Positions 13,787-32,364 of a DNA stretch of 64,000 nucleotides are shown here, piece by piece; within the stretch, counting starts at the first letter, position 1, and the number at the start of each line of letters is the position of its first letter. Source of the DNA: Actinomycetota bacterium (lineage in GTDB: Bacteria; Actinomycetota; Actinomycetes; Actinomycetales; Microbacteriaceae); the NCBI GenBank assembly GCA_020160915.1, contig JAIUPK010000001.1:89645-153644 (forward strand), read 5' to 3'. The notes under the pieces are model-generated. The model was not told the origin of the DNA. It did no database searches and worked only from the letters and a program-made list of their open reading frames with translations. Position numbers and translations under genes: made by a program.

Positions 13787-13822
13787 CGGAATCCATGGTG
13801 TACGCCCAGTACGCTGTTGGGC

Positions 13823-14965: not shown

Positions 14966-17737
14966 CTAGTCGAGGCGCACTCGGCGTGCCGATCCGTCCT
15001 CGTTGAGCTGCCAGCACTGACCCGGCGCAAGAGGCGGGGGCAGCTGCCGGGACCTCGTGATCGCGCGGAAGTCGGCGGGGGTGCATCCGTCGAGAATGAT
15101 GTCGGCCTGGGTTCGCAGGGCCGCTACCGCCCCCCATCGTGACTGCCACTCGTCGAGATCGCCGACGATTGTCACGCCGGGAAGAGCCACCGATCGGAGT
15201 TCGGGTCCGACGTCGGCGAGCGCAACTGCCGACGGCCACCTGGCCAACAGTGGTGCGACCCGGCTCGTCACGATGGCTCGCGCGCGCCGCGGGTCCAGTA
15301 GCGGCGCGACCGTCGGCCCGGTCACCGGTAGGGGCGGCGGGTCGGCCACCACCTGCATCCACTGCCCACGCCACAGTCCGCGCCCGGCGGGGAGTGCCGC
15401 GACGAACTGGCCACCCTCTCCCCCGGCCATCACGAAGTCCTGGCGGGAGGAATGGCGCAGCAGGAGCCGGCCGGGCACCAGCGCTGCGAGCCCCTGGGAC
15501 TCCCCCGTGATCCTCTGGGCGCTGAGCAGGGCCGTGATGCCCCGCCCCGGGCCCTCCCGGAGCAGGCGGGCCAGCAAATCCACGAATGCCGCTCGGTACT
15601 CTCCCGTGAACCGCGGAACCACTGCGTCGAGGTCGTCCAGAACGACACACGTCGCCGTGGACGCTGGGGTGTCAAGGGCTGCGACGAGATCGGTGATCAC
15701 ATCCCATGCTCCGTCGGGCTCAGCGGGAACGACCCGAATGCCAGGGTGACCGGTGGCCAGAGCGCGCAGCGCCGTCGACTTGCCGCTGGCGGGCGAACCG
15801 AGCACGAGCAGAGAACCCTCTGCCTCGAGGCTGTGGATGGCCGGCTCCTGATGCTGCTCGGATGGCAGGTCGACGAGGCCGAAACATCCGATGCCGTCGC
15901 GCGGAAGGGCGGCAGCCTTCAGCACGGCAGGAAGAGGCTCGCACCACGGCCGACGCGGCGGCGGAGAATCACTCCATCGTTGCGTGACGAGCGCGACGTC
16001 AGCCCCTGAGGCGAGGGCGAACTGAACCGAGCGTGGTGCTTCACCGGCGAGCCTGAGGACTCCGCGCCCGCGCGCCGTGAGTGGGATCCCCGCGGCGTCG
16101 TCGCACCCCACAACGGCCGAGCTGTCGGCTCGGTTGTTCACCCGAAGCGACACCCTCAGGTCGGCATTCGCCAGGACCCCGTCGCGAACGGCGCCCGCCG
16201 GCCGCTGCGTGCAGAGCACGAGGTGCATACCCAGCGAGCGCCCTCGCGCAGCGAGATCGGCGAACAGCCCGTGCAGATCGGGATGCTCGGCGAGCATCGC
16301 CGCGAATTCATCGACCACGATGACCAGCCGGGGAAGCGAGTCGATCTGTTCGATGGAACGAGCCCCACTGGTCACCAGCAGACGCTCCCGGTGACGCACC
16401 TCGGCCCGCAGGCTGTCGAGCGCGCGCGCCGCCATCATCGCGTCCAGATCGGTGATGATGCCGACGGTGTGCGGCAACCGAGCGAGAGCCGCGAACGTCG
16501 CCCCGCCCTTGTAGTCGATGAGCAGGAATGTGACGTGCTGCGGGGACCGCGACGCGGCCATGGCCAGTATCCACGCGACCAGCAGCTCGCTCTTGCCGCT
16601 TCCGGTGGTGCCCCCGATGACCGCGTGTGGACCGTGGGCCACCAGATCCAGCGTGACCGAGCCGCCAGCGTCCACACCGGGCTCGCACGCGAGGGAGGCG
16701 ACATCGGCAACCTCAGCCGGCCGCAGGAGCGGCGCGAGCTCGACGGCATCCGGCAGCAGGGCATGAGGAGACGTCATGCCCTCGCGGGCGGCATCCCGAG
16801 ACAGGCGGAGGGCCCACGCCGCCGCCTCGATCTCGGTGACCGGCAGCGGGTGAAGCGGATGACGATGGTCGGCGTCGGGATGACTCAGGATACGCAACTG
16901 CCCGTCCACGACACCGAGCACGATGGAGCAGGCGCCGGGGAGATGAGCTGGTGTTTCGGCAACGGCAACGATGGCCAGCGGTACCGCTTCGCCCCTCTGA
17001 CCGAACTCGACGAGGGAGCCGGGCACGCTCGTCGCCGCGGCTTCGTGGGGCAGGTCGTCAAGCCACGCGTCGAATGGTGCAGAACTTGCCGACCGCCAGC
17101 AGTCCGACGGGGATAGTCTCCGTGCGAGCTGGACGGCGATTCCGCGGGCGATCGCCCGGGCAAACACGGGCGGGCCGCTCACACCGATGCCGAGACGCGC
17201 GTCGACTGCCATCGGTGCACCTTCGAGCACCCTGGCCTGATCGGCGAGGTCGGCGATGGCTCGGTCCGAATCGGACGGCGGACCGGAGACGCGAGCTGGA
17301 GGCGAATCCACCGGCAGCATGCTCGGAATCGATGCGGTTCCGACGACAACCAGAATCGGAGACCGCCCATCGCCCCGCCAGCGATGAGGGTCTGGCCCCT
17401 CGTGTGCGACAAGCCGTGCGGGATCCGGGCTCGCGTCGAACAACCTGGTGCGCTCGTCGGCGTGGCGCCGCTCGATCTCGTGCGCGACCCGATCCCGATC
17501 GATCGCGAAGCGCGTGGTCTCGCGACGGCGCAGCTTGCGGGCAGTCCAGCGTGAATCGAAGTATCCGGCAATCGCGGTGGCGGGCCCGAGCGCCGCGAAT
17601 GCGAGAGTGAAGGCCGATCCTGTGACGACGAAGATTCCGACGGCGAGAATCACCGGCGCGGAGGCGGCAATGATCGGAAAGCGGAAGGGCGCCGGACGTT
17701 CGGGCGGGAGGGGCAGCTCGAGCGGTACCGGAGTCAC
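14966..17737 (-). CDS. EccC-like FtsK/SpoIIIE-family membrane ATPase
   Basis: 923-aa P-loop motor related to EccC of type VII secretion. Two transmembrane helices at about 20-62 are followed by a basic cytoplasmic segment. The first ATPase domain has Walker A GGTTGSGKSELL (Lys382), Walker B FLLIDYKGG and VIVVDEFAAML; the second has LGSPASGKSTALRALA (Lys653) and CVVLDDLDAVV. Genuine EccC proteins are longer (about 1200-1400 aa, three ATPase domains), so this is a shortened form. The GTG at 17737 is the only reasonable in-frame start; the SD-like GGGAAG lies unusually close to it. It is the last gene of the kinase/FN3/MoxR operon, 90 bases after the zinc-ribbon/FHA gene. No WXG100 substrate gene is visible nearby. 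Confidence 0.85.
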   Translation of the reverse strand: MTPVPLELPLPPERPAPFRFPIIAASAPVILAVGIFVVTGSAFTLAFAALGPATAIAGYFDSRWTARKLRRRETTRFAIDRDRVAHEIERRHADERTRLFDASPDPARLVAHEGPDPHRWRGDGRSPILVVVGTASIPSMLPVDSPPARVSGPPSDSDRAIADLADQARVLEGAPMAVDARLGIGVSGPPVFARAIARGIAVQLARRLSPSDCWRSASSAPFDAWLDDLPHEAAATSVPGSLVEFGQRGEAVPLAIVAVAETPAHLPGACSIVLGVVDGQLRILSHPDADHRHPLHPLPVTEIEAAAWALRLSRDAAREGMTSPHALLPDAVELAPLLRPAEVADVASLACEPGVDAGGSVTLDLVAHGPHAVIGGTTGSGKSELLVAWILAMAASRSPQHVTFLLIDYKGGATFAALARLPHTVGIITDLDAMMAARALDSLRAEVRHRERLLVTSGARSIEQIDSLPRLVIVVDEFAAMLAEHPDLHGLFADLAARGRSLGMHLVLCTQRPAGAVRDGVLANADLRVSLRVNNRADSSAVVGCDDAAGIPLTARGRGVLRLAGEAPRSVQFALASGADVALVTQRWSDSPPPRRPWCEPLPAVLKAAALPRDGIGCFGLVDLPSEQHQEPAIHSLEAEGSLLVLGSPASGKSTALRALATGHPGIRVVPAEPDGAWDVITDLVAALDTPASTATCVVLDDLDAVVPRFTGEYRAAFVDLLARLLREGPGRGITALLSAQRITGESQGLAALVPGRLLLRHSSRQDFVMAGGEGGQFVAALPAGRGLWRGQWMQVVADPPPLPVTGPTVAPLLDPRRARAIVTSRVAPLLARWPSAVALADVGPELRSVALPGVTIVGDLDEWQSRWGAVAALRTQADIILDGCTPADFRAITRSRQLPPPLAPGQCWQLNEDGSARRVRLD

Positions 17738-17827
17738 CTTCCCACAACACCATGCGGGCGCTCTCGTCAGAACGGCATCGCGCTGCGTCGTGCAGAAATC
17801 GGTGCAGCGCCGGATGGTGCGGAGGTG

Positions 17828-18787
17828 TCAGCTGACCACGAAGAACTGCTCGCCGATGTCCACCCGGGTGCCACGAACGATGCGGTAGCGCTTGCCCGGT
17901 TCGCAGCGCCGGGGCTGGGCATCGGGTTCGCGCACCACGGTTCCGTTGCCGGAGTACCGATCGCTGATCCAGAACGCACCACCGTCCTGGCCGAACTCGA
18001 GGTGTGTCTTGGATACCGACTTGCCGGGATCGGAGATGGCGACGAGCGCGTCGAAGTATTCGCCCGGCTCGGGCATCGGATTGCGCCCGAGCAGACCGGC
18101 GCTGGTCACACTCACACTCTCGCCGGTGCTGAACTGAAGGACGAAACGCTCCCCACGCCGACTTCGATCCACGATGCGGGTGTCATCGATGTCGTCATAC
18201 TCGCCGCGTGCGGAATCCCCCGGGTTCTCACTGATCTCGACTGAGGGGGCGTGCAGTGGCGCGCCGGCCGGAGTACCCCACGGAAATGGATCCAGGGCGA
18301 CGGTATCGCGCGGCCGATTGGAGGCGGACTGTCTAACGAAGCCACACTCGGGGCAGAAGATGTCGGCGGCATCAAGCCGAGTGCCGCACTGCGCACAGGA
18401 TTCCGGCTGAACACTCGAGGATGGCGCCGGATCGTCCGCGAAGTCGTGCTGGGGTTGAGGCTCAGGCTGAGGGACGACCTCCGGTTCCGGTTCCGGTTCC
18501 GGTTCCGGCGATACGTCAACCACGGGTTCCGGTTCCGGCTCAACCTCAGGCTCCGGTTCCGGCTCAACCCCAGGCTCACGTTCCGGCTCGAGTTCAGATC
18601 CGGAGAGGATGTGGGCTTCGTCACGCACTGACGACCCCGGCTCGACCAGCTCGGCGCCCTCGTGCACCGGCGTGGCCGTCGGCGCCGGCGTGGTCCTCGG
18701 CGTCGCCGCGCTCGCGACGGATCGGCCACATTCGCCGCAGAACATCGCCCCCAACGGAAGCTCTGTCGCGCAGTAGGAGCAGTTCAC
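17828..18787 (-). CDS. Zinc-ribbon and FHA-domain protein with Glu-Pro repeat linker
   Basis: 319-aa soluble protein. An N-terminal zinc ribbon (CSYCATEL...FCGECG, residues 3-20) is followed by a long Glu-Pro linker (about 70-125). A second zinc ribbon (CAQCGTRL...FCPECGF, about 137-155) and a C-terminal FHA domain (LLGRNPMPEPGE, SKTHLEF, NGTVV; about 225-319) come next. FHA domains bind phosphothreonine, so it is a likely reader of the kinase encoded in the same operon. IDDTRIVDRS, just before the FHA domain, resembles the threonine motifs of the other FHA protein here. GTG start with AGGA 8 bases upstream. Linker length may vary because of DNA repeats. Confidence 0.86.
   Translation of the reverse strand: MNCSYCATELPLGAMFCGECGRSVASAATPRTTPAPTATPVHEGAELVEPGSSVRDEAHILSGSELEPEREPGVEPEPEPEVEPEPEPVVDVSPEPEPEPEPEVVPQPEPQPQHDFADDPAPSSSVQPESCAQCGTRLDAADIFCPECGFVRQSASNRPRDTVALDPFPWGTPAGAPLHAPSVEISENPGDSARGEYDDIDDTRIVDRSRRGERFVLQFSTGESVSVTSAGLLGRNPMPEPGEYFDALVAISDPGKSVSKTHLEFGQDGGAFWISDRYSGNGTVVREPDAQPRRCEPGKRYRIVRGTRVDIGEQFFVVS
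18451..18597. repeat. Hexanucleotide-type repeats coding for the Glu-Pro linker
   Basis: A run of GGTTCC/GGCTCA-type hexamers, including four consecutive GGTTCC-like units around 18481-18508, encodes alternating Glu-Pro in the FHA/zinc-ribbon protein. The unit is in frame (two codons), so slippage would lengthen or shorten the linker without destroying the gene. Confidence 0.75.
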
Positions 18788-18796
18788 GGTGCAGTC

Positions 18797-21079
18797 CTAT
18801 CGCTTGAACAGGTCTCTGACACTATAACCACCGAGTGAGCGAAGCGAGATTCGTGCCTTCAGTCTCTGCCAGCGGGTGAGTCCCTCGTCGAGTGACACGT
18901 GCAGCTCATCCACTGCCCGCCACACGCTGTCGACATCGGATGCCGCCGACTCATCCGGCGAGAAGATCGCCCGATCGGCAACCGCCGCCAGAACCTGGGA
19001 CTGGACACCGCCCGCGATAGTAGCCACTTCACTGCGCGTGGCGGATGCGGCGGGGCTGAGTCCGTGATCGATGACGGCGTCCTCGAACTCCTGCCAACCC
19101 CCGCTGATCTGTTCGATGGCGCTGGGAGCGTGCCTGCGCAAACGCCGCCGCCGGAGCTTGGCGGCGATGATCAACAGGAACGGCGCCACGACGATTGCTG
19201 CGGCCAGCAGCACCCAGCCGATCACGCGGAGCAGCACCAGCAGGACCTGGAGCACCGGATCGAGATCGGGCGGAAGCTCCTGCTCGCTGTCGGGAGTGGT
19301 CTGTCGGTCGAACCGTTCGGAGTCCACGACGGGCGGGGGAACGATTGTGGGAGGACGCGACACCTGTGCATTGTCGGGAGGCTGCTCATCCGGGATCTCT
19401 CGCAACGGCGGAGTGGGGTCGAGGGCCACCCACCCGAACTGGGCCGTGCTGACCTCGATCCATGCCGACACGTCTGACCCCCGCACCACCCCGGACTGGG
19501 GCTGGAACCCGAGGACGACACGGGCCGGAAAGCCGAGCTGATCGGCCATGAGCGCCGCGGCCACCGCGTACTGCTCCGCGTCGCCGATCATTCGCGGCGC
19601 ACTGAGCAGCTCGGCGATGCGGTCAGCGGCATGGCCGGAGCGGCTGGCGGGCTCGTCCGCGCCGACTCCGTGACTGATGTACCCCTCGGCGGTGAGGCCG
19701 GCGATCATCGCGACGAGCTTCGGGCCGGCACCATCGACATCCGCGGTGTACTCGTCGAGCTTGGTCGCGACCTCCGCAGGGACCGAACTCGGGGTGGGCA
19801 CCGTGGCCGAGCCGGGCGTCAGAGTGTCCCACTGGTCGTCCGTCGGCTGGCGCGGTACTACAGCGGTAAGGGTGTACGAATCGCCCTGGCTCAGGCCTCC
19901 GATGACTGCCGCTGTGCCCGTCACGTCGTTGTAGTAGAACGCGTTGCGCAGATCAGCGGCGTCGCCACCGGCGAACTCGATCGACTCGAACTGACCGATC
20001 GTGGGTAGCCAGACTCCGGAGTAGGCGTCGATGGTGACGGTGACGCTCACCCGATCGCCGCTCACGCCCGACTGGTCGAATCGGTAGGGAACCCGGGTGA
20101 ATGAGCCCGACTCCGTGCTGACGTCGCCGCTCCCGACGGAGAAGACGATGCCGTCGTAGGTGTCCAAGGTGGCGAGGCGGATGCGATCGCCGGCCGCCAG
20201 GCCGTCCACCGAGAACTGAGACGCGTCCACCTGGTTTGGGCGCCAGAAGCTACGGAATCCGGCGAGCGGACTGACGTAGTCCCGCGGATCGAAGGGCTGA
20301 ACGATGGTCGTGCGAAGAACAGTGCGATCGGCGGACGGAGGAAGCGCAGCGGCACCCGCGACAGCCCCCACGGATGCCACCGCCATGATGACACCAGCAG
20401 CGACCACCGTGCGCAGGCCTGCTATCGGAGTCTCGGCACCGCCAGCGCCGTCACCGGTTCGGCTGAGGAGCATCCTGATCGCCGTCCGGCGTCGATACCA
20501 CCGAAACCACACGAGCCAGAAGAGCACGATGACCATGAGGGCGATCGGGGCGATCAGCGGCCGGTCGGGGAACTCGGGACCGAACGCAGTTGCAACGATG
20601 AACACGACGATCGGGGCGAGCACACCGAGTTCGCCCCACTGCGCGCGCAGCGCAACCGTCAGGCCCACGACGGTGCTCACAAGCACCAGTACGAATGCGG
20701 GAACCAGCAGCGCCTCATAGTCACCCACGGGAAGGGTGATCGTGAGAAGTTGCTTCCACCCGAGGGCGACGCCGGCGACAAGATCGATAAGCCCCTCGAG
20801 AGTCGGCAGAACGCCGAACTGGGTCTTGGACGGCACGGCAACCGGTACTCCGACAGCGAAGAACCCCACAACGGTCGCGAGCATCACGACGAAAGCCGGC
20901 CACCGGAATAGTGCTCCGAGGATGGCGATCAGGGTTCCCACCGCGAGGGCGACCGCCACCATCACGAGGAACGCCGTGCTCGCGTAGATGGGCCAGAGTG
21001 CGCTGGCCGCCACCACTGTCGCCAGCCACAGCATGAGGGTGTTGACCGCCACCACCATGGCGCTCGGCCGCGAGGACAT
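18797..21079 (-). CDS. TgpA-type transglutaminase-like membrane protein, catalytic residues apparently lost
   Basis: 760-aa protein with an N-terminal block of six or so transmembrane helices (DUF3488/TgpA_N-like, residues 1-215). An extracytoplasmic region containing a transglutaminase-like fold (about 470-560) is followed by another helix near 625 and a cytoplasmic tail. In active family members a GxCEQ/EHFA motif supplies the Cys and a HAW motif the His. Here the corresponding segments read IGDAEQYAVAAALM (Ala501) and DVSAWIEV (Ser538), while the Asp in VALDPTPP (Asp554) is kept. It is therefore probably a non-catalytic scaffold. ATG overlaps the DUF58 stop by one base. MoxR, DUF58 and TgpA genes commonly travel together. 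Confidence 0.85.
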   Translation of the reverse strand: MSSRPSAMVVAVNTLMLWLATVVAASALWPIYASTAFLVMVAVALAVGTLIAILGALFRWPAFVVMLATVVGFFAVGVPVAVPSKTQFGVLPTLEGLIDLVAGVALGWKQLLTITLPVGDYEALLVPAFVLVLVSTVVGLTVALRAQWGELGVLAPIVVFIVATAFGPEFPDRPLIAPIALMVIVLFWLVWFRWYRRRTAIRMLLSRTGDGAGGAETPIAGLRTVVAAGVIMAVASVGAVAGAAALPPSADRTVLRTTIVQPFDPRDYVSPLAGFRSFWRPNQVDASQFSVDGLAAGDRIRLATLDTYDGIVFSVGSGDVSTESGSFTRVPYRFDQSGVSGDRVSVTVTIDAYSGVWLPTIGQFESIEFAGGDAADLRNAFYYNDVTGTAAVIGGLSQGDSYTLTAVVPRQPTDDQWDTLTPGSATVPTPSSVPAEVATKLDEYTADVDGAGPKLVAMIAGLTAEGYISHGVGADEPASRSGHAADRIAELLSAPRMIGDAEQYAVAAALMADQLGFPARVVLGFQPQSGVVRGSDVSAWIEVSTAQFGWVALDPTPPLREIPDEQPPDNAQVSRPPTIVPPPVVDSERFDRQTTPDSEQELPPDLDPVLQVLLVLLRVIGWVLLAAAIVVAPFLLIIAAKLRRRRLRRHAPSAIEQISGGWQEFEDAVIDHGLSPAASATRSEVATIAGGVQSQVLAAVADRAIFSPDESAASDVDSVWRAVDELHVSLDEGLTRWQRLKARISLRSLGGYSVRDLFKR

Positions 21080-22515
21080 CAGGCAGCCACCGATCGCGCG
21101 AGAGACTTCTGCAGGTCCTCGAGATACCCGATCGTTAGCACGCTGAGGCCCGAGACCCGCCGCAGGCCCGGGGTTCGGTCGGGGTCGCAGACAATCGCGA
21201 TCACCTCGACGCCCACCGGGAACGCGACCGAAGCCGCGCGCAGTTCCTGCGGGTTGACCGTGGACCCGCAGACAAGGAAGGCAACCGAGACACCGGTCGC
21301 CTGATCCCCCGCGACTTTCGCGACATCGGTGATGCTCAGGGCCGTCTCCGATTTCTCGACCACGGCGAGATCGTCGAGCAACCTCGACCTGGTCAGAGTC
21401 GACAGCAATCGCACCGCGAAGACCTTGCGTTTGGCGAATTGAGGCGTGTACTCGCTCGCCACAACCGAGACCGTACGGGCATCCCGAATGGCGCGAGCAC
21501 CGAGCGAACCCGCAACACTCACCGCCATCTCGAACTCGGCGTCGGTTCCGTAGTCGGAACTCGCCAGACTCAACGCGACCACGAGATGACTGCGTCGGGT
21601 CTCCTCGAATTGCCGCACCATGTACTTGCCCGTGCGGGCGGTGGACTTCCAGTGGATGTAGCGCCGCTCGTCGCCGGGAAGGTACTCACGGAGGGCGTGG
21701 AACGACACGTCGTTGTTGGACAGATCCCTCGTGGGCTTGCCCTCGAGGTCCCGGATCAGCCCGGTGCTGAGGCTCGGGATGCCGATGGTGCGCGGATGAA
21801 CGAACAGTTCGGCGACCTCCGCCCAGATCAGTTCGCGGCGAACGAGCCCCACGGGATCGGCGCGCACAGTTCGCACGGGACCCACGGGCACGACACCTCG
21901 GCGCCCGGTGGGGATGGGGAACTCGCGTCGGACGCTGGCGCCGCGCGCCAGACCGGGAAGCACCAGTTCGGCCAATCCGGGGCCAACCGGCACCTCCACG
22001 GTCACGCCGAGGGCACGGCGTCGGCCGGGGTTGGTGGCAACGAGTTGGCCGGACGCCGGCTCGCCGACAACGACACGACTGTGTTCGACGGTCAGTGCGA
22101 TGCTCACGGGGCTCCGCCCGATCAGGTAGAGGGCCGCAATGACGAGCATGGCCAGACCCGCGAATCCCACGACGATGAGCTCGATCCAGCCCAGCCCGTA
22201 GCCGAACCCCAGCGTCAGCGGCACAAGCAGCACGACGGTCCACCCGAGTGGAGTGACCACCGCAGCGACTCGCCCGAACACGCGGCTGAGAGCCGCACCG
22301 AATGCCGTTGCGAGCCGTACGACGGTGACTATCGCGTCGGCGAGGAATCCCGTGCGCTCGCCGACTATCCGGGTTCGCGCATTGGTGAGCCCCTTCGTTG
22401 ACGTCGTCGAGTGAAGGTCTGTGCGCGATCCGGTCGTGCTGCCAGCGGGGCGCGACGATGAGCGCGTCGATCCGCGAACGGATGACACGCTGCCGGGCAC
22501 CTTCGCCCGAGCCAT
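21079..22515 (-). CDS. DUF58 domain protein
   Basis: 478-aa membrane protein. About 50 disordered Ser/Arg/Thr-rich residues precede two adjacent transmembrane helices (about 82-130). A beta-rich segment and the DUF58 core follow: DVSFHALREYLPGDERRYIHWKSTA is spread around residues 265-290. The DUF58 core normally leads into a von Willebrand A-like domain; here the metal-site start reads VVALSLASSDY, without the usual Asp of DxSxS. DUF58 proteins work with MoxR ATPases. The start overlaps the moxR stop by one base and its own stop overlaps the tgpA-like start, so all three are coupled. Confidence 0.88.
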   Translation of the reverse strand: MARAKVPGSVSSVRGSTRSSSRPAGSTTGSRTDLHSTTSTKGLTNARTRIVGERTGFLADAIVTVVRLATAFGAALSRVFGRVAAVVTPLGWTVVLLVPLTLGFGYGLGWIELIVVGFAGLAMLVIAALYLIGRSPVSIALTVEHSRVVVGEPASGQLVATNPGRRRALGVTVEVPVGPGLAELVLPGLARGASVRREFPIPTGRRGVVPVGPVRTVRADPVGLVRRELIWAEVAELFVHPRTIGIPSLSTGLIRDLEGKPTRDLSNNDVSFHALREYLPGDERRYIHWKSTARTGKYMVRQFEETRRSHLVVALSLASSDYGTDAEFEMAVSVAGSLGARAIRDARTVSVVASEYTPQFAKRKVFAVRLLSTLTRSRLLDDLAVVEKSETALSITDVAKVAGDQATGVSVAFLVCGSTVNPQELRAASVAFPVGVEVIAIVCDPDRTPGLRRVSGLSVLTIGYLEDLQKSLARSVAA

Positions 22516-23486: not shown

Positions 23487-23511
23487 GGAATGCCCTTCAT
23501 TCGTGATGCTG

Positions 23512-26500
23512 TCAGTCATAGTCGAAGCCGTTGTACGAGATCGTGTAGGTCTGCCCACCGTTGGCGGTGACCCTGATGGTGAGCCACGGCGTCTGTGCAG
23601 GGTTCGCCGAGACGTGGCAGGTCGGATCGCTCCCCGCGACAAGGAACGTCCCATCCCCCGGCGCCGTGCCGCAGGCGTACTCGACCAGCTCGTAGGTTCC
23701 GGAGGGAAAGCCTAGCCACGCGAACGTTCCATCGTTCTGCGGATCGCCCGAGTCATCCTGAGTGAAGGTCAACGGGCCGGCGACCTGGGGGTCGACTGGA
23801 ACACCCAACGGGAAGGCCGACGACATGGTCGGCTGGCACACGAGTTGTCCGCCGTAATCGCGGCACGCCCTGAGCTCCACCGAGACGGACTGGCCAAATT
23901 GAAGGGGCTCGGCCGCCAGGAACCCGGGGATGCTGACGGGGCCGTACTCCGTGCCGCCATTCAACCGGTAGTACACCGAGTAGCCGCTGGAGACCATGCC
24001 GCCGCCGAGGTCGATGCCCTGCAGGACGAAGTCGAACACGGACCCGTTGGCTGAGGGCCCCGAGACCGAGAGGTCGACCACGACAGACGGAGGCGTGCGG
24101 GCGATCACGGTCTGACTCTGGGTGCAGCCCTGTCCGTTGTAGGCGAAGACGACCAGCGTGTACTCGACTTCAGGTGACAGGCCGCTGAAGATCGTCGACG
24201 TGCCGGTTCCTGCGGCGAAGAGTGTCGCTCCGTTGTCGGTGACTGTGCCGTCGGAATCGCAACTCGGACCGGCGCCCGTGTAGATCGCCGCCGTATAGTC
24301 GGAGACCGCGCGCCCGTTGGCGGAGAATGTCCCGCTCCAGTCCAGGGCGATACTCGTGTCACTCGTCGACGTCGCGATCGGTGGGGCGATCGCCAGCGGG
24401 GCGCCCGCCGGCGTCCCCTGCTGGGACGTGGAGTTCCAGGCCGCCAGTGGACCGAAGGCGTCGTTGCGGGCGCTGACCGAGTACGTGACGAGGGTGCCGT
24501 TGGCGAGGGATGAGTCGACGACGGAGGTCGTGCAGGTTGCGGTGGAGCATCCGACAGACGTCGACACCCCGCCCACGTCGACGACGTAGGTCGATACTGG
24601 CGTGCCGCCGGCGGGTGTCGGGACCGCGTTCCAGGTGACGCGCAGTCCGTGGTCGAGGGGCTCCGCTGAGACGCCGCTCGGCGCAGCGGGCACGATGTCG
24701 GACCAGACCCCTGAACCGGTGGATACGGCGTCGGAGTCGCCGATGGCGTTGGTCGACACCACGGAGAATCTCACCGCGTTGGCGGATCCGTTTCCGGGGG
24801 TGGGCACGGTGCAGGTGGTTCCACCGCAGGTGACGGTGGTGAAGGTGGACCCCGAGGTGGTGCTCACGACGACTCGATAGCCGGTGATCGGCGAGTTGTT
24901 GAATGCGCCGGCATTCCAGCGCAACGAGATCTCGCGATCACCGAAGCCCGTGGCGGTCAGGTTCGTGACCGGATCCGGGCGATCCTGCACGGAAATCGTG
25001 ACGAGGCCCCACACGAACCGATCCGGATCGTTGGTCGCGTCGGCCACCTGGTACTGGAGGGTGACGTCGCCCGGCGCGGCAGTCGAGGAGACCGTGACCG
25101 ACAGGGAACTCTTGTTGGCGCTAGGGACGATCTCCACCCCCGCGGGAAGGGCGTCGCCGTCGAGGCCCCGAATAGCGACGACCTGCAGGGGCTTGCCTGC
25201 GAACGGGTTCGTCGCCTCGTCGTTCACGAGCACGTCGACGGTCGTCGTCGAGCTGCGCTTCACGATGGCCTGGTCGGCGCCCGGACGCACCAGCGGCCGC
25301 GTTGACTGGACGACGCTCAACTCGATTCGACCGGACTGACCCACCGACAGGTCGTCCTTCACCCCGAGGGTCATCGCCGTTGCCGAGCCCTTGACCGCGT
25401 CATCGTCGGCGCGCAGGGTGAGCTGCGAGCCATTCAGGGCGTAGCTGAAGCCGATGGGGAGCGGATCGATGACCGAGTAGGCGAGCTCAGCTAGGTCGTC
25501 AGGATAGGGGTAGTTGGTCAGCTTGAGCAGGTCGATCTCCTTCTCCTGACCCGGCTCGAAGCTGATGACGGCGCCGCGGAAGACCGGAGGCTGATTGTCT
25601 CGGGGCAGGACCGTGATCGGCAGCACGAGGATCGCGGTGCGCCCGTTCGGATCCGTGGCCGATGTGCCGTCGGTCACCTCGAAGGAGATCGATGCTGGTC
25701 CGAAGTACTTGTCGGCCGAGGTGAAGGCGAGGGTGTCGTCATCCACCACGAGGTTGCTGCCGTCGGAGTGGGTCGCCCGCACGCTATTTGCGTCGGTGAG
25801 CCTCACCTGCTTGCCGCCGACTGCGATCACGTAGTCGTTGAGATCGATGGTCAGTGTGTCCTCGCTATTGACGCGCAGAGCTGGAGCGCGGCGATCGACC
25901 TGGGGCAGGGCATCATCTGATCCCGGAACCCGGATGAAACCGTAGCTGACCACTGACGGGTCGTCCGGGTGGGTGACCTTGAACGGGATGATCTGGCTCT
26001 TCTTGCCGACGGTCACGGTGACGCGCTTACCGCTGGTCACCGACGCGTTCGCGCCGTAGCCGGGGTAGATCGACAGGCCGAGCGTACGCGGGTCGCCGTC
26101 GGCGAAGAAGACGTTGGCGAGAACATCCACAGTGACCTGATCACGGTCGAGCACGTCGGACAGAGTGAGCACGGTGTCGGATACCAGCGGATAAGCCAGC
26201 GCCGCGTCGGCCTTCACGGTGATGCGGATGAAGTTCTGGCTGCTGCCGCCGGAGGCGTTGGCGATCGAGTAGATCACGCCATAAGTGCCGGGGGTGCGGG
26301 GCGGGGTGACCTGCACGAGGTCGCCGACGATCTCCGCGGTCGTCACCGTGTCGTTGGGTTCGGCGGAGACGATGGTGAGCGGGCTTCCGTCGGGATCCGA
26401 ATCGTTGGCGAGCACCTGCACCGAGACGGTCACGCCCGGCCGCACGGTGACCTCGTCGACGATTGCGACCGGGTTGCGAGCACCCTCGAGCCGTGGGCTG

Positions 26501-29388
26501 ATGCCCACGCGGATGGTTCCGGTGGAGCGTGCACCGAGGGAGTCGATGACCGTGTAGGTGAAGGTGTCGGTTCCCGCCGAGTAGTCGCCGGCCTGATAGG
26601 AGATCCTGTCAGCCTGGGTGTCGATGACCGCACCCTTCTCCGGGTTGCTGGCCTGACCGAGCAATTGCACCGAGTCGCCGTCCGGATCGATCCCCGTCAG
26701 CGGAATCTTCACCCGAACCGTCTCACCCGCCAGCACCCGAGCGGTGACCGTCGCAGGCACCGGCGCGTTGTTGGTGGCCTGGTCCTCCTCGCGGACGTTG
26801 ATCCTCACCACGGCCGTCGCGGCCTGCCCATCGGGTCCGGTGACCCGGTAGCTCGCGGTGAAGTTGCCGGTGCGATCGGGAGCGAGGTAGCGCAACACGT
26901 TGCCCGACGCGAAGAGCAGACCCGAGTTCGCGGGCAGCTGCTGTTCGAGCGTGGGTTGCAGGGTGAGATCCAGGCCGTCGGGATGCTCGTCGTTGCGCAA
27001 CACAGGGATGTCGATCGCCTGCCCCACGCGCACCGTCACGCTGTCGTCAGTGGCGATCGGCGCCTGAACGCGGGTCGGAGTCGGGATCTCGATCACTGTG
27101 ATCACGCCCTCGGCCTCGGCGAGGCCGTTGCTGATTCGGTAGTTGAAGGTCACAGGGTGATCCAGCGGCGCCTCGAGGCTCACGCGAACGAGACGTTGTT
27201 CGAGCACCTCAGCACGAACTCCCGAGTTCGCGGGCAGATTGGTGATTCCCGTGACCAACAGCACGCCGCCGGCCGGATCGACGTCAGTGCCGGCGACATC
27301 GATGCGCTCGTTGCGCAGAGTCTTGACGAATACGGTCTTGGGCACCGTGATGGGCTTGGTGTTCGCGTCGGGCGGGGCTGCGACATCCACGCGCACGAGC
27401 CCTGTAACCGTCTGCGTTCCATCGGTGACGACGAATTCCAAGTAGTGGGTGCGTACCGCCGAGCTCGTGAAACGGAAGGTTCCGGTCTCGTAGCTCGGGG
27501 TGATCGTGACATCCGCTTTGGCGGGCACGCTGTTGAGCCGCAGGGTGCCCGATCCACCACGAACGTGGTCGAGTGGACTCAGGGTGACTTCTTGTCCGGC
27601 GTACGCGAGCACCGCGAAGGGCTCGGCCACGATGGGCACCTCGCCCGCGGCCTTCACTGTGACGGTGAGCGTGCCGGTAGCCTCGGCGCTGCCGTCTGAA
27701 ACGACAATGGTCACAACCTTGAGGTCGCCGCCGGCGCCAGCATCGGTGAAGACGACCGAGCCGCCCGGCTTGTAGCTGACGGAGTCTGGTTCGGCCGTAC
27801 TGGCGCTCGTGAGGTAGAACGCGTCGCCGTCGGGATCGACCCAATCCGAGAGCACCTGGGAGGCGACGCGGCCGCCTGCTTGCACGACGGCCTTGGTTGT
27901 GCGCACCTGCTGCGGCGCCGAGTTCTCGGCTTCGCCTCGAATGGTGACGACGACGCTCGCCGTTGCGGTTCCGCCCCGCCCGTCGGTGATGGAGTAGTCG
28001 AACCGCAGCTGTCCCGAGGCACCGGGAGAGAGGGTGAGTTGGATCTGCTGCCGTTCGGTGATGAGGTCGATGCGACCGACAGCCTCATCGATGGGCGTTA
28101 GCTCTGAGACCACGAGAACGTCGCCGTTCGGGTCATAGTCATTGAGCAGTACCGGAAGCACCGTGGACCTGCCGGGACGCGCACCGAACTCGTCGTCGAG
28201 AGCGACGGGAGGCTGCTGAGCCTTCTCCACCTCGGGAGGGATCTCCTCGTCGTTCTGCTGCTCCTGGGGCGTCTGGTCGTCGACCGTGATGAGCTCGTCC
28301 CAGTTGTCGATGAGCTCCCCGGCGCGTTGCACCGCCCAGGTGGCCCCCGACCGCCGATCGTTGAGAACGGCCCGGGCACCATTCGTTTCGAAGCTCAGTC
28401 GGGCGGTACCGGGCATGGAGGCGAGCACCGCAGTCGTGCCCTCGGATTCACCACCGCACCTGCGCCAGTTCTGCCCGTTCGACCACGCGGCATAGTCGCA
28501 TCCCGCAAGGCTCAGCGGGCGAGCCGGGCTGCCGGCGGTGTCCGTGACCAGGGATGACACAGCACCACTGCCCAGCGAGACAGCGATGAGTCCGCCCGAG
28601 TAGCCAATGAGCACCCGCTCACCGTCGATGCTCGGCCACTGCAGCACCGCACCCGTGCCGGATCCCAGCTCGGCCGAGAGGTCGACGGTGCGTCCGTCGA
28701 GAAGGAGCGCGTCGGTCTGCGTGTCGAGAATCACCCAGTGTCCGCCGACGGACGTGATGCTGCGGCTGGACGACGTGCCGGGCACTGTCACCGACTGCGA
28801 ACTGTCAACACCGTCGGAGGATGCGGCGTTCACTCGATAGACGAGCCCGGCAGACGGCGAATAGGCGTAGAGCACGCCCGCCGGATCCATGCTCACCATG
28901 GCGTCGGTGCCCAGGCTCAACGTCGAATCGGACTGGGCGTCGAAGGTGGACAGGTCGGCTGAGTTCAGCAGCCAGAGTTCGCCGGTGCCCTGCTCGAAGA
29001 CGGCAACACGCGTGCCAGCCAGGAGCACCTGGGGCTGGTTGGGTGGGAGCGCGACGCTGTCGCTGATCTCAGAGGTCGCGGCATCCACGATATCGATCTT
29101 GTTCTCGGTGCGATCGACCAGCAGCACCGTGGACCCCTGCTGGAGCACCTGGATGTCGTTGCCTGTCGACGCGACAACGGTGTTGAGCTCGAGGACCTCG
29201 GTGTTGGCGCGACCGATAGCCTGCTGCTGGCTGTTGGCGACCCAGACCGAGCCGTCACCCAGTTCGAGTTGCTGCGCCGGGTAGCCCGTCGACACGATGG
29301 CAACAGCCCCGACCAGGGCCGCGATGACGACACCGCTGGTCACACTGATGACGAGCGACGCGTGGGCGGAAATCCACTTCCTGATCAC
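23512..29388 (-). CDS. Giant cell-surface protein: beta-propeller-like region, Ig/cadherin-like repeats, FN3 domains
   Basis: 1958-aa membrane-anchored protein. The GTG at 29388 (10 bases after the kinase stop) gives a short basic N-terminus and one transmembrane helix (about 10-33), so the bulk is outside the cell. Residues about 40-350 look like a beta-propeller of short repeats. An acidic linker (QTPQEQQNDEEIPPEVEKA) follows. Tandem Ig/cadherin-like domains then carry calcium-type loops such as LPVLLNDYDPNGD, LTGIDPDGDSV and VLANDSDPDGSP. At least two or three C-terminal FN3 domains begin at about 1490 (PVTNLTATGFGDREISLRWN), with several Cys pairs. There is no LPXTG or other sorting signal at the end. 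It is the likely effector or adhesin of the operon, comparable with the FN3 protein of bifidobacterial PFNA clusters. Confidence 0.85.
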   Translation of the reverse strand: MIRKWISAHASLVISVTSGVVIAALVGAVAIVSTGYPAQQLELGDGSVWVANSQQQAIGRANTEVLELNTVVASTGNDIQVLQQGSTVLLVDRTENKIDIVDAATSEISDSVALPPNQPQVLLAGTRVAVFEQGTGELWLLNSADLSTFDAQSDSTLSLGTDAMVSMDPAGVLYAYSPSAGLVYRVNAASSDGVDSSQSVTVPGTSSSRSITSVGGHWVILDTQTDALLLDGRTVDLSAELGSGTGAVLQWPSIDGERVLIGYSGGLIAVSLGSGAVSSLVTDTAGSPARPLSLAGCDYAAWSNGQNWRRCGGESEGTTAVLASMPGTARLSFETNGARAVLNDRRSGATWAVQRAGELIDNWDELITVDDQTPQEQQNDEEIPPEVEKAQQPPVALDDEFGARPGRSTVLPVLLNDYDPNGDVLVVSELTPIDEAVGRIDLITERQQIQLTLSPGASGQLRFDYSITDGRGGTATASVVVTIRGEAENSAPQQVRTTKAVVQAGGRVASQVLSDWVDPDGDAFYLTSASTAEPDSVSYKPGGSVVFTDAGAGGDLKVVTIVVSDGSAEATGTLTVTVKAAGEVPIVAEPFAVLAYAGQEVTLSPLDHVRGGSGTLRLNSVPAKADVTITPSYETGTFRFTSSAVRTHYLEFVVTDGTQTVTGLVRVDVAAPPDANTKPITVPKTVFVKTLRNERIDVAGTDVDPAGGVLLVTGITNLPANSGVRAEVLEQRLVRVSLEAPLDHPVTFNYRISNGLAEAEGVITVIEIPTPTRVQAPIATDDSVTVRVGQAIDIPVLRNDEHPDGLDLTLQPTLEQQLPANSGLLFASGNVLRYLAPDRTGNFTASYRVTGPDGQAATAVVRINVREEDQATNNAPVPATVTARVLAGETVRVKIPLTGIDPDGDSVQLLGQASNPEKGAVIDTQADRISYQAGDYSAGTDTFTYTVIDSLGARSTGTIRVGISPRLEGARNPVAIVDEVTVRPGVTVSVQVLANDSDPDGSPLTIVSAEPNDTVTTAEIVGDLVQVTPPRTPGTYGVIYSIANASGGSSQNFIRITVKADAALAYPLVSDTVLTLSDVLDRDQVTVDVLANVFFADGDPRTLGLSIYPGYGANASVTSGKRVTVTVGKKSQIIPFKVTHPDDPSVVSYGFIRVPGSDDALPQVDRRAPALRVNSEDTLTIDLNDYVIAVGGKQVRLTDANSVRATHSDGSNLVVDDDTLAFTSADKYFGPASISFEVTDGTSATDPNGRTAILVLPITVLPRDNQPPVFRGAVISFEPGQEKEIDLLKLTNYPYPDDLAELAYSVIDPLPIGFSYALNGSQLTLRADDDAVKGSATAMTLGVKDDLSVGQSGRIELSVVQSTRPLVRPGADQAIVKRSSTTTVDVLVNDEATNPFAGKPLQVVAIRGLDGDALPAGVEIVPSANKSSLSVTVSSTAAPGDVTLQYQVADATNDPDRFVWGLVTISVQDRPDPVTNLTATGFGDREISLRWNAGAFNNSPITGYRVVVSTTSGSTFTTVTCGGTTCTVPTPGNGSANAVRFSVVSTNAIGDSDAVSTGSGVWSDIVPAAPSGVSAEPLDHGLRVTWNAVPTPAGGTPVSTYVVDVGGVSTSVGCSTATCTTSVVDSSLANGTLVTYSVSARNDAFGPLAAWNSTSQQGTPAGAPLAIAPPIATSTSDTSIALDWSGTFSANGRAVSDYTAAIYTGAGPSCDSDGTVTDNGATLFAAGTGTSTIFSGLSPEVEYTLVVFAYNGQGCTQSQTVIARTPPSVVVDLSVSGPSANGSVFDFVLQGIDLGGGMVSSGYSVYYRLNGGTEYGPVSIPGFLAAEPLQFGQSVSVELRACRDYGGQLVCQPTMSSAFPLGVPVDPQVAGPLTFTQDDSGDPQNDGTFAWLGFPSGTYELVEYACGTAPGDGTFLVAGSDPTCHVSANPAQTPWLTIRVTANGGQTYTISYNGFDYD

Positions 29389-29398
29389 GTGATCACCG

Positions 29399-30829
29399 TC
29401 ATCGCGGTACGTCAGCGCACTTCTCGCTGCTGGGCATTCCGGTCTTGCCCTCACGGTTCACTGCGACGGTGATGCACACCCGGTCGCCGGGCTCCGCGTC
29501 GACCACGAAGCTCGTGCCGCGCTGCTGAACGGGTGCGCCGCCGTCTGAGGTGCTCACCTGATACGTGTCGGTGGCACCGAGGCCCGGGTCACTCCACGTG
29601 AACTCGACGGTGTTGTCGGTGACCTGCGTCTCGATTGCGGTCACCATCGGGATGTCCGACGATGCCGACCGCAGCAGCACCAGTGTCGCAACGGTGCCGA
29701 GGACGACCGCGAGGACCGCCGCCGCCACCAGGATCCACGCGATTGTCTGGAATCGGCCACCGCGATCCTGGGGTCGCGTGCCCGAACTCCGAGGCAACGG
29801 GGCGTCTTCCTTGATGAGTGTTCCCACCGCGCTGTAGTCGCCGGTGGTCTCCCCGGTGCGCCGCCGACGCCGGCGCTGGGAGACCGTGCCCCGCGGAACG
29901 ACCCCACCACGGATCCTGGTGCGATCTTCCAGGTCGGCGACCGTCGCGAGGGCCCAGTCGTCCATGACGACTTCCACGGGAGTCTGCGGCACACCGATTT
30001 CGGTCTCCACCGCCTGCAATTCCCTCACCAGTTCCAGGATGCTGGACTGGCGGTTCTCGGGCTTGCGCGACATGGCCCGCCAGAGGGCGCGCTCCAGGCT
30101 CTGGGGCACATCATTGCGATCCATCGGCTGCGGCTTCGCACGGTTGATGCGCGAGATCAGATCGGTCGACTTGTTCGAGTCACCGGGCACCTCGAATGGC
30201 GAGCGGCCCGCCAGCAGCGAGTACACCGTCGCCGCGAAGGCCCACACCTCGGATGCCACGGTGCCGGCCGTCTCGTCCATGAGCACCTCCGGCGCCGACC
30301 ACGGGATCGACATGCCCACGGCCTCGCGATCGTCGGACTCGCTCAGGGTGGCGGCGATGCCGAAATCGGACAGCACGGGGTGTCCGTAGGCGGTAAGGAG
30401 GATGTTGGACGGCTTGATGTCGCGGTGCAGGACACCAGCACGGTGCGCAGTCTCGATCGCGCTACCGATCTTGACCGCGATGCGCAGCACCTCGGCGACG
30501 GGCAGGCGTTCGATGCGATATCGCTGACTCAGCGCCGACGAACACAGTTCCATGACCAGGTAGGGGCGGCCGTCGGATGACACGCTCGCCTGGTACACCG
30601 TGAGGATCGAGGGGTGCGCGCTCAACTGGGCCATCAGGTTGGCCTCGGCCTGGAACATCTGCCGCACCTGGTCGTTGACGACCTCGCTGAGCATGACCTT
30701 GACTGCGACCTGTCGACGAGGCATGTTCTGCTCGTACAGGAAGACGTCCGCGAAACCGCCGGAGCCCAGAATGTGAATGTGGGAGAATCCCGGCAGCGTC
30801 GGGGGTTGGGATGGCAGTCGGCGCGCCAC
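29399..30829 (-). CDS. Membrane Ser/Thr protein kinase with extracellular FN3-like domain
   Basis: 476-aa receptor-type Hanks kinase. From the GTG at 30829 (GAGGGG 7 bases upstream; GTG at 30835 is an alternative) the catalytic features are the Gly loop GSGGFADV (22-29), Lys44, Glu62, HRDIKPSN with Asp137, SDFG with Asp155 and WSAPEVL. A basic juxtamembrane linker contains DRTRIRGG and RRRRRRTGETTGDYSAVGT, probable autophosphorylation sites. A transmembrane helix lies at about 365-390. The outside domain is FN3-like (VEFTWSDPGLGATDTYQVS), not the PASTA repeats of PknB. It should phosphorylate the FHA proteins encoded in the same operon. The giant FN3 gene follows after 10 bases. Confidence 0.93.
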   Translation of the reverse strand: MARRLPSQPPTLPGFSHIHILGSGGFADVFLYEQNMPRRQVAVKVMLSEVVNDQVRQMFQAEANLMAQLSAHPSILTVYQASVSSDGRPYLVMELCSSALSQRYRIERLPVAEVLRIAVKIGSAIETAHRAGVLHRDIKPSNILLTAYGHPVLSDFGIAATLSESDDREAVGMSIPWSAPEVLMDETAGTVASEVWAFAATVYSLLAGRSPFEVPGDSNKSTDLISRINRAKPQPMDRNDVPQSLERALWRAMSRKPENRQSSILELVRELQAVETEIGVPQTPVEVVMDDWALATVADLEDRTRIRGGVVPRGTVSQRRRRRRTGETTGDYSAVGTLIKEDAPLPRSSGTRPQDRGGRFQTIAWILVAAAVLAVVLGTVATLVLLRSASSDIPMVTAIETQVTDNTVEFTWSDPGLGATDTYQVSTSDGGAPVQQRGTSFVVDAEPGDRVCITVAVNREGKTGMPSSEKCADVPR

Positions 30830-30861
30830 GAACACCCCCTCGCCTCTGGACGTATCCGACC

Positions 30862-30867
30862 ATTCTA
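30862..30867 (-). promoter_or_regulatory. Possible -10 element for an internal promoter before the kinase gene
   Basis: On the minus strand this reads TAGAAT, close to the TATAAT consensus, about 27 bases before the kinase SD. No good -35 hexamer is seen 17 bases upstream. It would allow the kinase and downstream genes to be expressed separately from the FHA and phosphatase genes. Confidence 0.3.
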
Positions 30868-30899
30868 GGCAGGTACCCCGCGGGCTGGGTCGCCGTGTA

Positions 30900-30941
30900 C
30901 CCCGAAGAGGGGTCGTGCGGCCGACCCCCACTTCTGGGTCG
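30900..30941. other. Mutually exclusive hairpins between phosphatase and kinase genes
   Basis: In the 140-base gap between the PP2C stop and the kinase start, CCCC (30900-30903) can pair with GGGG (30909-30912). GGGGTCG (30909-30915) can instead pair with CGACCCC (30922-30928) around a 6-base loop. CGACCC (30922-30927) can also pair with GGGTCG (30936-30941). The stems share bases and so exclude one another, as in an attenuator. There is no clear U-run on the transcript, so intrinsic termination is not demonstrated. Confidence 0.45.
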
Positions 30942-30969
30942 TCGGGAGCCGCTTTCGATACCTGCGAGC

Positions 30970-31803
30970 TCAGTGCGAGCGGGCTGAACGCGGTGCCGTG
31001 TCGTCGTCGGGCACTGACTCGGGGGCATCCAGCACATCGATCACGATCGCCGTGATGTTGTCGCGGCCCCCCGCGGCGAGCGCAGCGTCGATGAGTGCGC
31101 CAGCGGTCTCGAGCGCCGACAACCCGGCCGCCAGGTGCAGTCGGAGGCGTTCGGTGCTGACCTCCTTGGTGAGCCCGTCAGAGCACAGCAGTAGACGCAG
31201 TCCGGCGTGAGCGCGGATCATCCAGAAGTCCGGGATGGGCGCCGCGTTGAACCCGACGGCGCGCGTGATGATGTTGCTGTCCGGATGATGCTCGGCCTCG
31301 TCGCGCGTGAGGGTGCCCGACTCCACCAGTTCCTGAACCACCGAGTGATCGACCGTCACCTGAGTGAGCTCGTTGCGTTCGAACGAATAGACCCGGCTGT
31401 CGCCGACATTGAAGATTGCGAAATACGGCTCGTCATCCTGAAGGGTCAGGAGGGCCCCCGTGACAGTGGTGCCGACGCCGAGCTCGCTCTCCCCCGAGAT
31501 CACCGAGATGTCGTCGGTTGCCGCCTCAAGGGCGCGCTCGATGGCGCGAGGGGCAGCGAAGTCCCCCACCGCGGCCTCGGCGAGCCGGCGCACGACGGCC
31601 GCACTGGCCAGGTCGCCCGCCGAGTGGCCGCCCATCCCGTCTGCCACGGCGAACATGGGCGACTGCGCGACGTAACTGTCCTCGTTTGCGGCACGCCTGC
31701 GACCGGTGTCGGTGGCCGCCGCCCATGCGATCACGAACGCGTCGGCAGGGTGCCCGGGGATGGGCACGGCCAAGCGCGCCGTGCTGGCGCCGATCTCGGT
31801 CAC
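30970..31803 (-). CDS. PP2C-family Ser/Thr protein phosphatase
   Basis: 277-aa metal-dependent (Mg/Mn) phosphatase expected to reverse the action of the kinase encoded next to it. The family motifs are complete: RRRAANEDSYVA (N-terminal Asp), FAVADGMGGHSAGDLAS, NVGDSRVYSF, LLLCSDGLTKEV and the C-terminal GGRDNITAIVI with the metal-binding Asp. No membrane segment is present, unlike PstP of mycobacteria, so it is cytosolic. It starts 18 bases after the upstream FHA gene stop. Confidence 0.95.
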   Translation of the reverse strand: MTEIGASTARLAVPIPGHPADAFVIAWAAATDTGRRRAANEDSYVAQSPMFAVADGMGGHSAGDLASAAVVRRLAEAAVGDFAAPRAIERALEAATDDISVISGESELGVGTTVTGALLTLQDDEPYFAIFNVGDSRVYSFERNELTQVTVDHSVVQELVESGTLTRDEAEHHPDSNIITRAVGFNAAPIPDFWMIRAHAGLRLLLCSDGLTKEVSTERLRLHLAAGLSALETAGALIDAALAAGGRDNITAIVIDVLDAPESVPDDDTAPRSARSH

Positions 31804-31821
31804 GACTGCCTCTCCGCCCTG

Positions 31822-32361
31822 CTAGGCCGGGCGTTGCATCGGGAGGATCTGGAGGATGTTGTCGTCACCAATATCCACCAGTGTGCCCGGAGACACTACC
31901 ACCGACTCACCCTGACGCAGCTTGCGTGGCACACTGCCCGGCACCATGACGATCGACCCGTTCGTGGATCTGAGGTCAGTGACCACCACCGTGGCACCCA
32001 GCTGACGTACCTCGACGTGCGATGCTGAGACCTCCCGCTGGGGCGACGGAACTCGAATCAGACGCGGCGGCGCTCCGGTGACCACTCTGGGTGCCGAAGG
32101 ATTGCGACCGACGTAGCACGGGGCGTCGAGCACAATCGGTTCGGCGCGCGACGACACCCGCACCGCGTAGTAGCGCAGTGGCGCAATCTCCTCAGTCTGT
32201 TGAGGCTCGTCGACGATCGGAAGCCCTGTGGCGTGGTCGATCCGCCTTGGCGCGGGCTTCGGCACGATGCGGGTGTGCTCGACGTCGGGCTCGCTCGATC
32301 GCGCGACGGACGGCAGATCGCGCGGGGGCACGATCACCGTGTCGTCGAGGTCCTCACTCAC
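31822..32361 (-). CDS. FHA-domain phosphothreonine-binding protein
   Basis: 179 aa from the GTG at 32361; a TTG at 32403 inside the 38-bp repeats would add 14 residues (METHDQQ...) that are translated repeat DNA. The GTG is preferred because removing the repeats restores a GTGA overlap with the aldehyde dehydrogenase stop, although no SD is visible. The N-terminal tail has two threonine motifs, DDTVIVPP (Thr8) and EHTRIVPKP. The FHA domain fills about residues 75-175: YVGRNPSAP, SASHVEVRQ, TDLRSTNGS, GTLVDIGDDNILQIL. It is the first gene of the phosphatase/kinase operon and a probable kinase substrate and adaptor. Confidence 0.85.
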   Translation of the reverse strand: MSEDLDDTVIVPPRDLPSVARSSEPDVEHTRIVPKPAPRRIDHATGLPIVDEPQQTEEIAPLRYYAVRVSSRAEPIVLDAPCYVGRNPSAPRVVTGAPPRLIRVPSPQREVSASHVEVRQLGATVVVTDLRSTNGSIVMVPGSVPRKLRQGESVVVSPGTLVDIGDDNILQILPMQRPA

Positions 32362-32364
32362 CCG

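Follow-up and report, generated by a model that had tools for sequence, protein, structure and literature searches.

The window analysed here, a stretch of 64,000 nucleotides (nt) at C1:89645-153644 in a Microbacteriaceae genome of 2.93 Mb in 8 contigs, contains a nine-gene operon that ties a gene cluster known from bifidobacteria, PFNA, to type VII secretion. The first eight genes encode a PFNA-type set of kinase, giant surface protein, MoxR ATPase, DUF58 protein and TgpA-like protein together with a phosphatase and two FHA proteins, and the ninth encodes a shortened form of the type VII motor ATPase EccC. The operon is real, conserved in the family and present beyond chance. We give an even chance to the reading that these nine genes encode a PFNA-type envelope module of the kind found paired with a type VII motor, which is here reduced, and that the module is gated by phosphorylation.

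Gene content and order

Nine minus-strand open reading frames (ORFs) are all present between an aminobutyraldehyde dehydrogenase gene and a convergent alanine dehydrogenase gene. The transcription order is FHA1, PP2C, Ser/Thr kinase (STPK), giant, MoxR, DUF58, TgpA-like protein, zinc-ribbon FHA2 and EccC-like ATPase:

31822..32403, minus strand: FHA protein 1 (FHA1), 193 amino acids (aa) as longest ORF, with the start placed at 32361 in the initial annotation; Pfam FHA 5.6e-5
30970..31803, minus strand: PP2C-type Ser/Thr phosphatase, 277 aa; Pfam PP2C_2 3.4e-11; NCBIfam Stp1 5.2e-60, below the Stp1 cut-off
29399..30931, minus strand: transmembrane Ser/Thr kinase; Pfam Pkinase 7.3e-40; HRD and DFG intact
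23512..29388, minus strand: giant protein, 1958 aa; Pfam Big_9 4.2e-61 and fn3 3e-15; tand_rpt_95 6e-30
22515..23486, minus strand: MoxR AAA+ ATPase, 323 aa from the start common among homologues, longest ORF to 23654; Pfam AAA_3 9.2e-62
21079..22515, minus strand: DUF58 membrane protein; Pfam DUF58 1.9e-12; transmembrane segments by hydropathy
18797..21079, minus strand: TgpA-like polytopic protein; Pfam TgpA_N 1.4e-15 and Transglut_core 1.1e-11
17828..18787, minus strand: zinc-ribbon and FHA protein (FHA2); Pfam Zn_Ribbon_1 1e-9, DZR 1.8e-8 and FHA 2.4e-6
14966..17737, minus strand: short EccC; Pfam FtsK_SpoIIIE 1.4e-36; AlphaFold2 (AF2) pLDDT 84.9; PDB matches 4nh0, 7b9f and 6umm

By ORF coordinates, 18 nt separate FHA1 from PP2C and 38 nt separate PP2C from the kinase. 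The gap between kinase and giant is 10 nt with the giant's start at 29388, and that between giant and MoxR is 25 nt with the MoxR start at 23486. MoxR, DUF58 and TgpA follow one another with 1-nt overlaps, and gaps of 9 nt (TgpA to FHA2) and 90 nt (FHA2 to EccC) complete the series. Because the largest gap is 90 nt, the operon has no room for an additional gene such as TsdH. The initial annotation had described nine same-strand genes with tiny gaps or overlaps, and the ORF coordinates and Pfam domains confirm this; its phosphothreonine signalling parts (FHA, PP2C, kinase and second FHA) are likewise borne out by Pfam. A terminator-like site was looked for on the minus strand of the operon and none was found, and a promoter scan, which is uninformative for this bacterial group, found no sigma-70-like site.

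The motor and its WXG100 context

The short EccC consists of a membrane and stalk region (residues ~1-319), a D1 ATPase domain (~346-600), a degenerate D2 (~601-800) and a D3 (~803-923) that is identified by conservation and profile comparison as a remnant without a P-loop. The catalytic part of D1 is invariant in short EccCs, and after D1 the protein is ~220 residues shorter than most other actinobacterial EccCs. Its N-terminal part matches EccC membrane-plus-stalk structures; the AF2 fold was built on 20 sequences and structural matching was restricted to the listed folds. NCBIfam relates the motor to EssC, EccCa and EccCb, each below cut-off. Pfam finds no FtsK alpha or gamma domain in the short EccC and no FHA domain, the FHA genes being separate instead. 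In its own genome it is the only EccC found, the other match being an FtsK with alpha and gamma domains. On the predicted fold, the motor is structurally an EccC with membrane part, stalk and conserved D1, so that the EccC-type motor claimed in the initial annotation stands in a refined form, as a shortened EccC with D3 cut.

Short and long EccC classes were split at 1200 aa, which puts two Bifidobacteriaceae EccCs and some truncated ORFs in the shorter class; L045 (G009), with an ORF called at 1393 aa, nevertheless groups with the short EccCs. When 198 genomes of the order were searched, only family members matched the short EccC over most of its length; the threshold of 1e-60 may miss diverged short EccCs in other families. 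In the same draw, 17 genomes of other families match D1 and adjacent sequence, for the most part in frames 1250-1820 aa long.

A search with our own WXG100 profile found no WXG100 ORF at any of 74 short-EccC loci. The window's genome gave a single WXG100 match (67 bits), outside the window at C1:619007-619258 (L013:7999-8289 +). This gene adjoins a groEL-type gene and its product ends in what we take to be a YxxxE motif. The same neighbour stands beside the WXG100 at 19 of 21 family loci, own included, and is absent at L237 and L247.

Linkage within the Microbacteriaceae

Seventy-four short-EccC loci from other Microbacteriaceae genomes were fetched, four of them on contigs too short to judge; all linkage counts are tied to stretches of 20 kb and to profiles that were themselves derived from this family. 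The core is defined as kinase, giant, MoxR, DUF58 and TgpA, and is counted as linked when at least four of these five lie upstream on the same strand. By this definition the core is linked to the short EccC at 42 of 74 loci, so the motor gene is not normally unlinked from its neighbours, and 34 of the 42 have the exact order FHA1-PP2C-STPK-GIANT-MoxR-DUF58-TgpA-FHA2-EccC. The remaining loci comprise 3 with part of the core on truncated contigs, 1 partial, 24 with none (at least 9.6 kb) and the 4 unjudgeable ones. L088 and L108, fetched as fillers, were left out of the analysis. In the EccC and core proteins that were compared, one genome of the family matches Leifsonia flava identically (L068 and L132).

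A motor match was obtained in 119 of 120 family genomes, a count that mixes short EccC, long EccC and FtsK, and the giant query matched 98 of the 120. With the giant counted from at least 1000 bits, 52 genomes hold both short EccC and giant, 25 the motor only, 18 the giant only and 25 neither (Fisher p 0.007, kinship ignored). Four motor-only genomes (G009, G049, G113 and G119) hold core genes at the locus, with the giant broken, diverged or cut off; moving them gives 56/21/18/25 and p 0.0016, kinship again ignored. Of 19 giant-only candidates examined by profile search, G056 proved to have a short EccC and the other 18 gave no intact one, with EccC fragments at the old place in G035 and G110. 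A short EccC is also present in G074 (L197).

Each part is also found without the other. At L194-L196 the operon is complete, alanine dehydrogenase follows FHA2 directly and no EccC match is found at the locus. Otherwise complete operons at L198, L199 and L201 have weak EccC matches only (62, 25 and 51 bits), which suggests decay of the motor alone, and the genomes of these six loci gave no intact short EccC at another place in a profile search. Conversely, six unlinked short-EccC genomes lack an orthologue of the PFNA-type kinase: their best matches score 90-109 bits, compared with 642-738 bits in four PFNA genomes. The giant was not found at E <= 1e-10 in nine short-EccC genomes, seven of which have a locus long enough to judge, those of G038 and G113 being truncated; the only control on this negative is the 98 matches of the same query in a separate search. 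The core lies elsewhere, away from the short EccC, at five loci (L209-L213). The reading that every unlinked genome lost the core as one block was rejected, since the core is found elsewhere in G086, G002, G033, G108 and G077. So the short EccC and the core show an association, although in some lineages either works without the other.

At L038 and L060, from one genus, a family-type short EccC follows a kinase-giant-MoxR-DUF58-TgpA set that is strongly diverged, which would fit a core that was exchanged or that evolved rapidly.

PFNA cores beside long EccCs

A second locus in the congener G082 (L214/L092, C1:1219000-1247999) repeats the gene set of the window operon, but its EccC is full-length and fused to FHA, and WXG100 genes are present. 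It starts with PP2C, FHA, kinase, a 239-aa protein without Pfam match, giant, MoxR, DUF58 and TgpA, continues with an RDD-FHA protein, a 1497-aa EccC with fused FHA (three P-loops in L092) and a WXG100, and ends with a WXG-like ORF without Pfam match followed by a 421-aa protein that has membrane segments and is a possible secreted substrate.

PFNA genes were also found at 9 of 58 named loci of other EccCs, from Aeromicrobium, Paenarthrobacter, Demequina, Pseudoclavibacter, two Microbacterium, two Arthrobacter and Pseudarthrobacter, with WXG100 in the stretch at 7 of the 9. A draw of 296 genomes from the class included 15 outside the family in which TgpA matched at 1e-30. Seven of these 15 loci were fetched; all seven have giant-MoxR-DUF58-TgpA, and two have a long EccC and WXG100. 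From the G082 locus and the 9 of 58 loci, the PFNA-type cluster emerges as a recurrent partner of type VII motors. By gene content, the core thus recurrently adjoins such motors in actinomycetes, though most long EccC loci are without it. No papers joining PFNA or MoxR-DUF58-transglutaminase to type VII secretion were found in the open-licence literature.

At two further loci, L222 (G004) and L100 (G050), PFNA-like genes lie divergently beside a long EccC.

Signalling, envelope and remodelling proteins

FHA1 has, by eye, GR, S..H and TNG motifs, which we take to be those of phosphothreonine-binding FHA domains. Metal-binding motifs are likewise present by eye in PP2C, and the kinase has one transmembrane segment near residue 401 by hydropathy, followed by a short external C-terminal part. 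By these motifs, the kinase, PP2C and FHA parts look active.

The giant has an N-terminal membrane segment (sequence and hydropathy), Big_9/cadherin-like (tandem-95) repeats and FN3. We infer that its hydrophobic N-terminal segment would suit ordinary membrane insertion.

Walker A and B were seen by eye in MoxR. The window's TgpA has Ala at the place of the catalytic Cys and Ser at that of the His, and keeps the Asp. In an alignment of 103 rows, the catalytic Cys is present in none (one row has a gap) and the His in 7, and none of 7 additional loci from other families has the Cys. Two of five distant TgpA-like controls examined have it (Egibacteraceae GYCEQYA and Kineosporia GFCEHYA); the Cys motif had no match in the other three, from Cellulomonas, Aeromicrobium and Actinoplanes. 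Judged by these columns, the PFNA-type TgpA is a predicted pseudo-transglutaminase in the window and its relatives. Cross-linking of the giant by TgpA as a transglutaminase was rejected for the PFNA-type protein, whose catalytic Cys is missing. No TgpA match was found in the two Bifidobacteriaceae genomes searched (G314 and G315).

Flanking genes

Two boundary genes lie outside the system:

13784..14941, plus strand: alanine dehydrogenase, convergent; Pfam AlaDh_PNT; marks the shared locus and lies within the stretch at 40 of 74 short-EccC loci
32428..33861, minus strand: aminobutyraldehyde dehydrogenase, upstream; NCBIfam PRK13473 5.9e-207

Genes for an ABC transporter ATPase and a solute-binding protein (window 11239-13652, minus strand) also flank the operon, and together with the aminobutyraldehyde dehydrogenase they possibly serve polyamine uptake and breakdown.

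Proposed mechanism and alternatives

In the phosphorylation-gated module proposed above, the giant would enter the membrane by its own N-terminal segment and span the wall beside the EccC ring. The kinase, with its external part, would sense external cues and set the phosphothreonine state together with PP2C. The FHA proteins would read this state and thereby control assembly, docking or gating of the membrane EccC ring, and the same state would also control the MoxR-DUF58-pseudo-TgpA assembly or remodelling unit. The short EccC would move or extract a non-WXG100 substrate, or serve as the module's regulated membrane motor; its substrate is probably not a WXG100. Both partners would keep a job of their own, because each is often found without the other. 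A more far-reaching version, which we hold tentatively and at somewhat less than even chances, makes the PFNA core the envelope part of a distinct actinomycete type VII subtype, composed of kinase, PP2C, FHA, a giant protein spanning the wall, MoxR, DUF58, pseudo-transglutaminase, FHA-EccC and WXG100. One branch in Microbacteriaceae would have dropped WXG100 and the third ATPase domain to become a WXG100-independent, phosphothreonine-gated export motor, and the bifidobacterial PFNA would lie at the motor-less end of this series.

Several observations weigh against a single module. PP2C, not the giant, is the steadiest partner of the short EccC, being kept at 20 of 24 unlinked loci. The EccC tree has 95 rows, of which 57 are linked, 34 unlinked and 4 unknown; L043 and L083 were set as linked by hand because of TgpA, and the partial L031 counts as linked. 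On this tree linkage changed at least 13 times, 8-9 of them forced by well-supported branches. Five rows linked to a short EccC fall outside the main core group. All trees were quick ones without mixture models. One of short EccC and giant occurs without the other in 43 of 120 genomes; from this split and the repeated changes of linkage, core and short EccC may be neighbours and not one machine. Among the other EccCs, 49 of 58 loci were not counted with a PFNA core in reach, some on short contigs. The D1 tree used 125 of 177 rows, after omission of 11 loci that were mostly fragments and of roughly every other short row. On it, rows labelled 'long EccC with at least two core genes' do not cluster significantly: these 8 rows require 7 changes against a shuffled mean of 7.8, a value as low being reached in 77 of 500 shuffles, and 6 of the 8 lie in one group of 17 (support 90, not starred).

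These points lend themselves to the alternative of a separate unit of two or three genes (PP2C, zinc-ribbon FHA and the short EccC), with a function of its own, that shares with the PFNA core only a conserved chromosomal slot flanked by an aldehyde dehydrogenase and alanine dehydrogenase. The steadiness of PP2C, the six short-EccC genomes without a kinase orthologue, the nine that gave no giant, the EccC-free cores at L209-L213 and the recurring alanine dehydrogenase neighbour all favour it. Against it, 34 genomes from a diverse family keep the eight genes co-linear with the motor, and PFNA genes lie beside long EccCs in other families, so the association goes beyond a shared slot; we regard a separate unit as rather unlikely. 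A reduced but working type VII system with the single groEL-adjacent WXG100 as substrate is improbable. The genome does hold one such protein, with its presumed YxxxE end, and one EccC to serve it. The groEL-linked WXG100 is nevertheless kept in G013, G066, G081 and G095, where the best motor match (E 1e-12 to 1e-14) is at the level of the window genome's own FtsK, and this persistence weakens the case for a dedicated substrate. No short-EccC locus carries a WXG100, and the third ATPase domain, which is reported to dock WXG100 substrates in EccC (PMC9436818 and PMC6986878), is here without a P-loop.

The initial annotation had suggested a machine that assembles or exports the giant or else an unlinked substrate. 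Shared membership of the operon at 42 of 74 loci and a modest co-occurrence speak for export of the giant by the EccC, but the giant has its own N-terminal membrane segment. Operons at L194-L196 have no EccC match and those at L198, L199 and L201 weak ones only, and 18 of 120 genomes hold a giant without an intact short EccC, though long EccCs there could stand in. Because each occurs without the other, export or insertion of the giant was rejected as the principal reading and is very improbable. A DNA translocase of FtsK/HerA/TcpA type is more improbable still, given the match of the N-terminal part to EccC membrane-plus-stalk structures and the lack in the motor of a Pfam match to the alpha and gamma domains that the genome's separate FtsK has.

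If the phosphorylation-gated module is correct, the PFNA cluster would be a general envelope module of actinomycetes, one that docks to motors of type VII secretion. The expected roles of its kinase, FN3 protein and 'transglutaminase' would change accordingly, PFNA having so far been read as a bifidobacterial device for communication with host immunity. The short EccC, which has lost the WXG100 docking domain, would be a natural case for asking how little of a type VII motor can suffice, and genomes that have lost one part or the other are ready natural experiments.

Comparison with known systems

The bifidobacterial PFNA operon resembles the window in having a kinase, FN3 protein, MoxR AAA ATPase, DUF58 and a transglutaminase-like gene in the same order on one strand. 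According to PMC8430577 and PMC6803598, prpC (PP2C) and fha accompany it in some species, and co-transcription of PFNA is reported for B. longum. The window adds PP2C and FHA upstream and the zinc-ribbon FHA and short EccC downstream. Its assignment to PFNA follows gene content and order. The PFNA-like order claimed in the initial annotation holds in the window, and the whole order recurs at 34 of the 74 other loci. A term search of both papers found no occurrence of EccC, FtsK, ESX or type VII. Linked PFNA genes are described as unique to bifidobacteria in PMC8430577; the same gene set is widespread in Microbacteriaceae, which speaks, by gene set and not by homology, against a PFNA restricted to bifidobacteria.

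The type VII secretion system d (T7SSd; Garrett et al. 2024, PMC11217815) shares with the window a kinase, a giant Ig-like envelope protein, an FtsK/EssC-type ATPase and a phosphothreonine theme, and a membrane Ser/Thr kinase accompanies the ATPase in both. According to the same paper, T7SSd has a WXG100 (TsdA), an FHA fused to the ATPase and TsdH, none of which is at the window locus, and TsdI has a signal peptide and a C-terminal transmembrane segment whereas the membrane segment of the window's giant is N-terminal. MoxR, DUF58 and transglutaminase do not occur in the T7SSd text searched, and the giant has no significant BLASTP similarity to one TsdI-like protein from a Bombiscardovia locus, to which the T7SSd label was assigned here. 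The type VII EccC/EssC ATPase is described in PMC11217815 as having four C-terminal nucleotide-binding domains, and the window motor lacks this full set. With EccC of T7SSa (4nh0, 7b9f and 6umm) the motor shares membrane segment, stalk, D1 and D2; it differs in that the third ATPase is a P-loop-less remnant and the locus has no WXG100 ORF. EccB had no match in the window's genome and matches in 12 of 120 family genomes. Assignment to plain T7SSd or T7SSa was rejected, as defining features of each are missing.

Loci with PFNA genes beside a long EccC (L092/L214, L138, L145, L148, L149, L154, L158, L165, L261 and L264) share this juxtaposition with the window, from which they differ in their longer EccC and in the WXG100 ORFs in the stretch; the whole window gene set is present at L214/L092.

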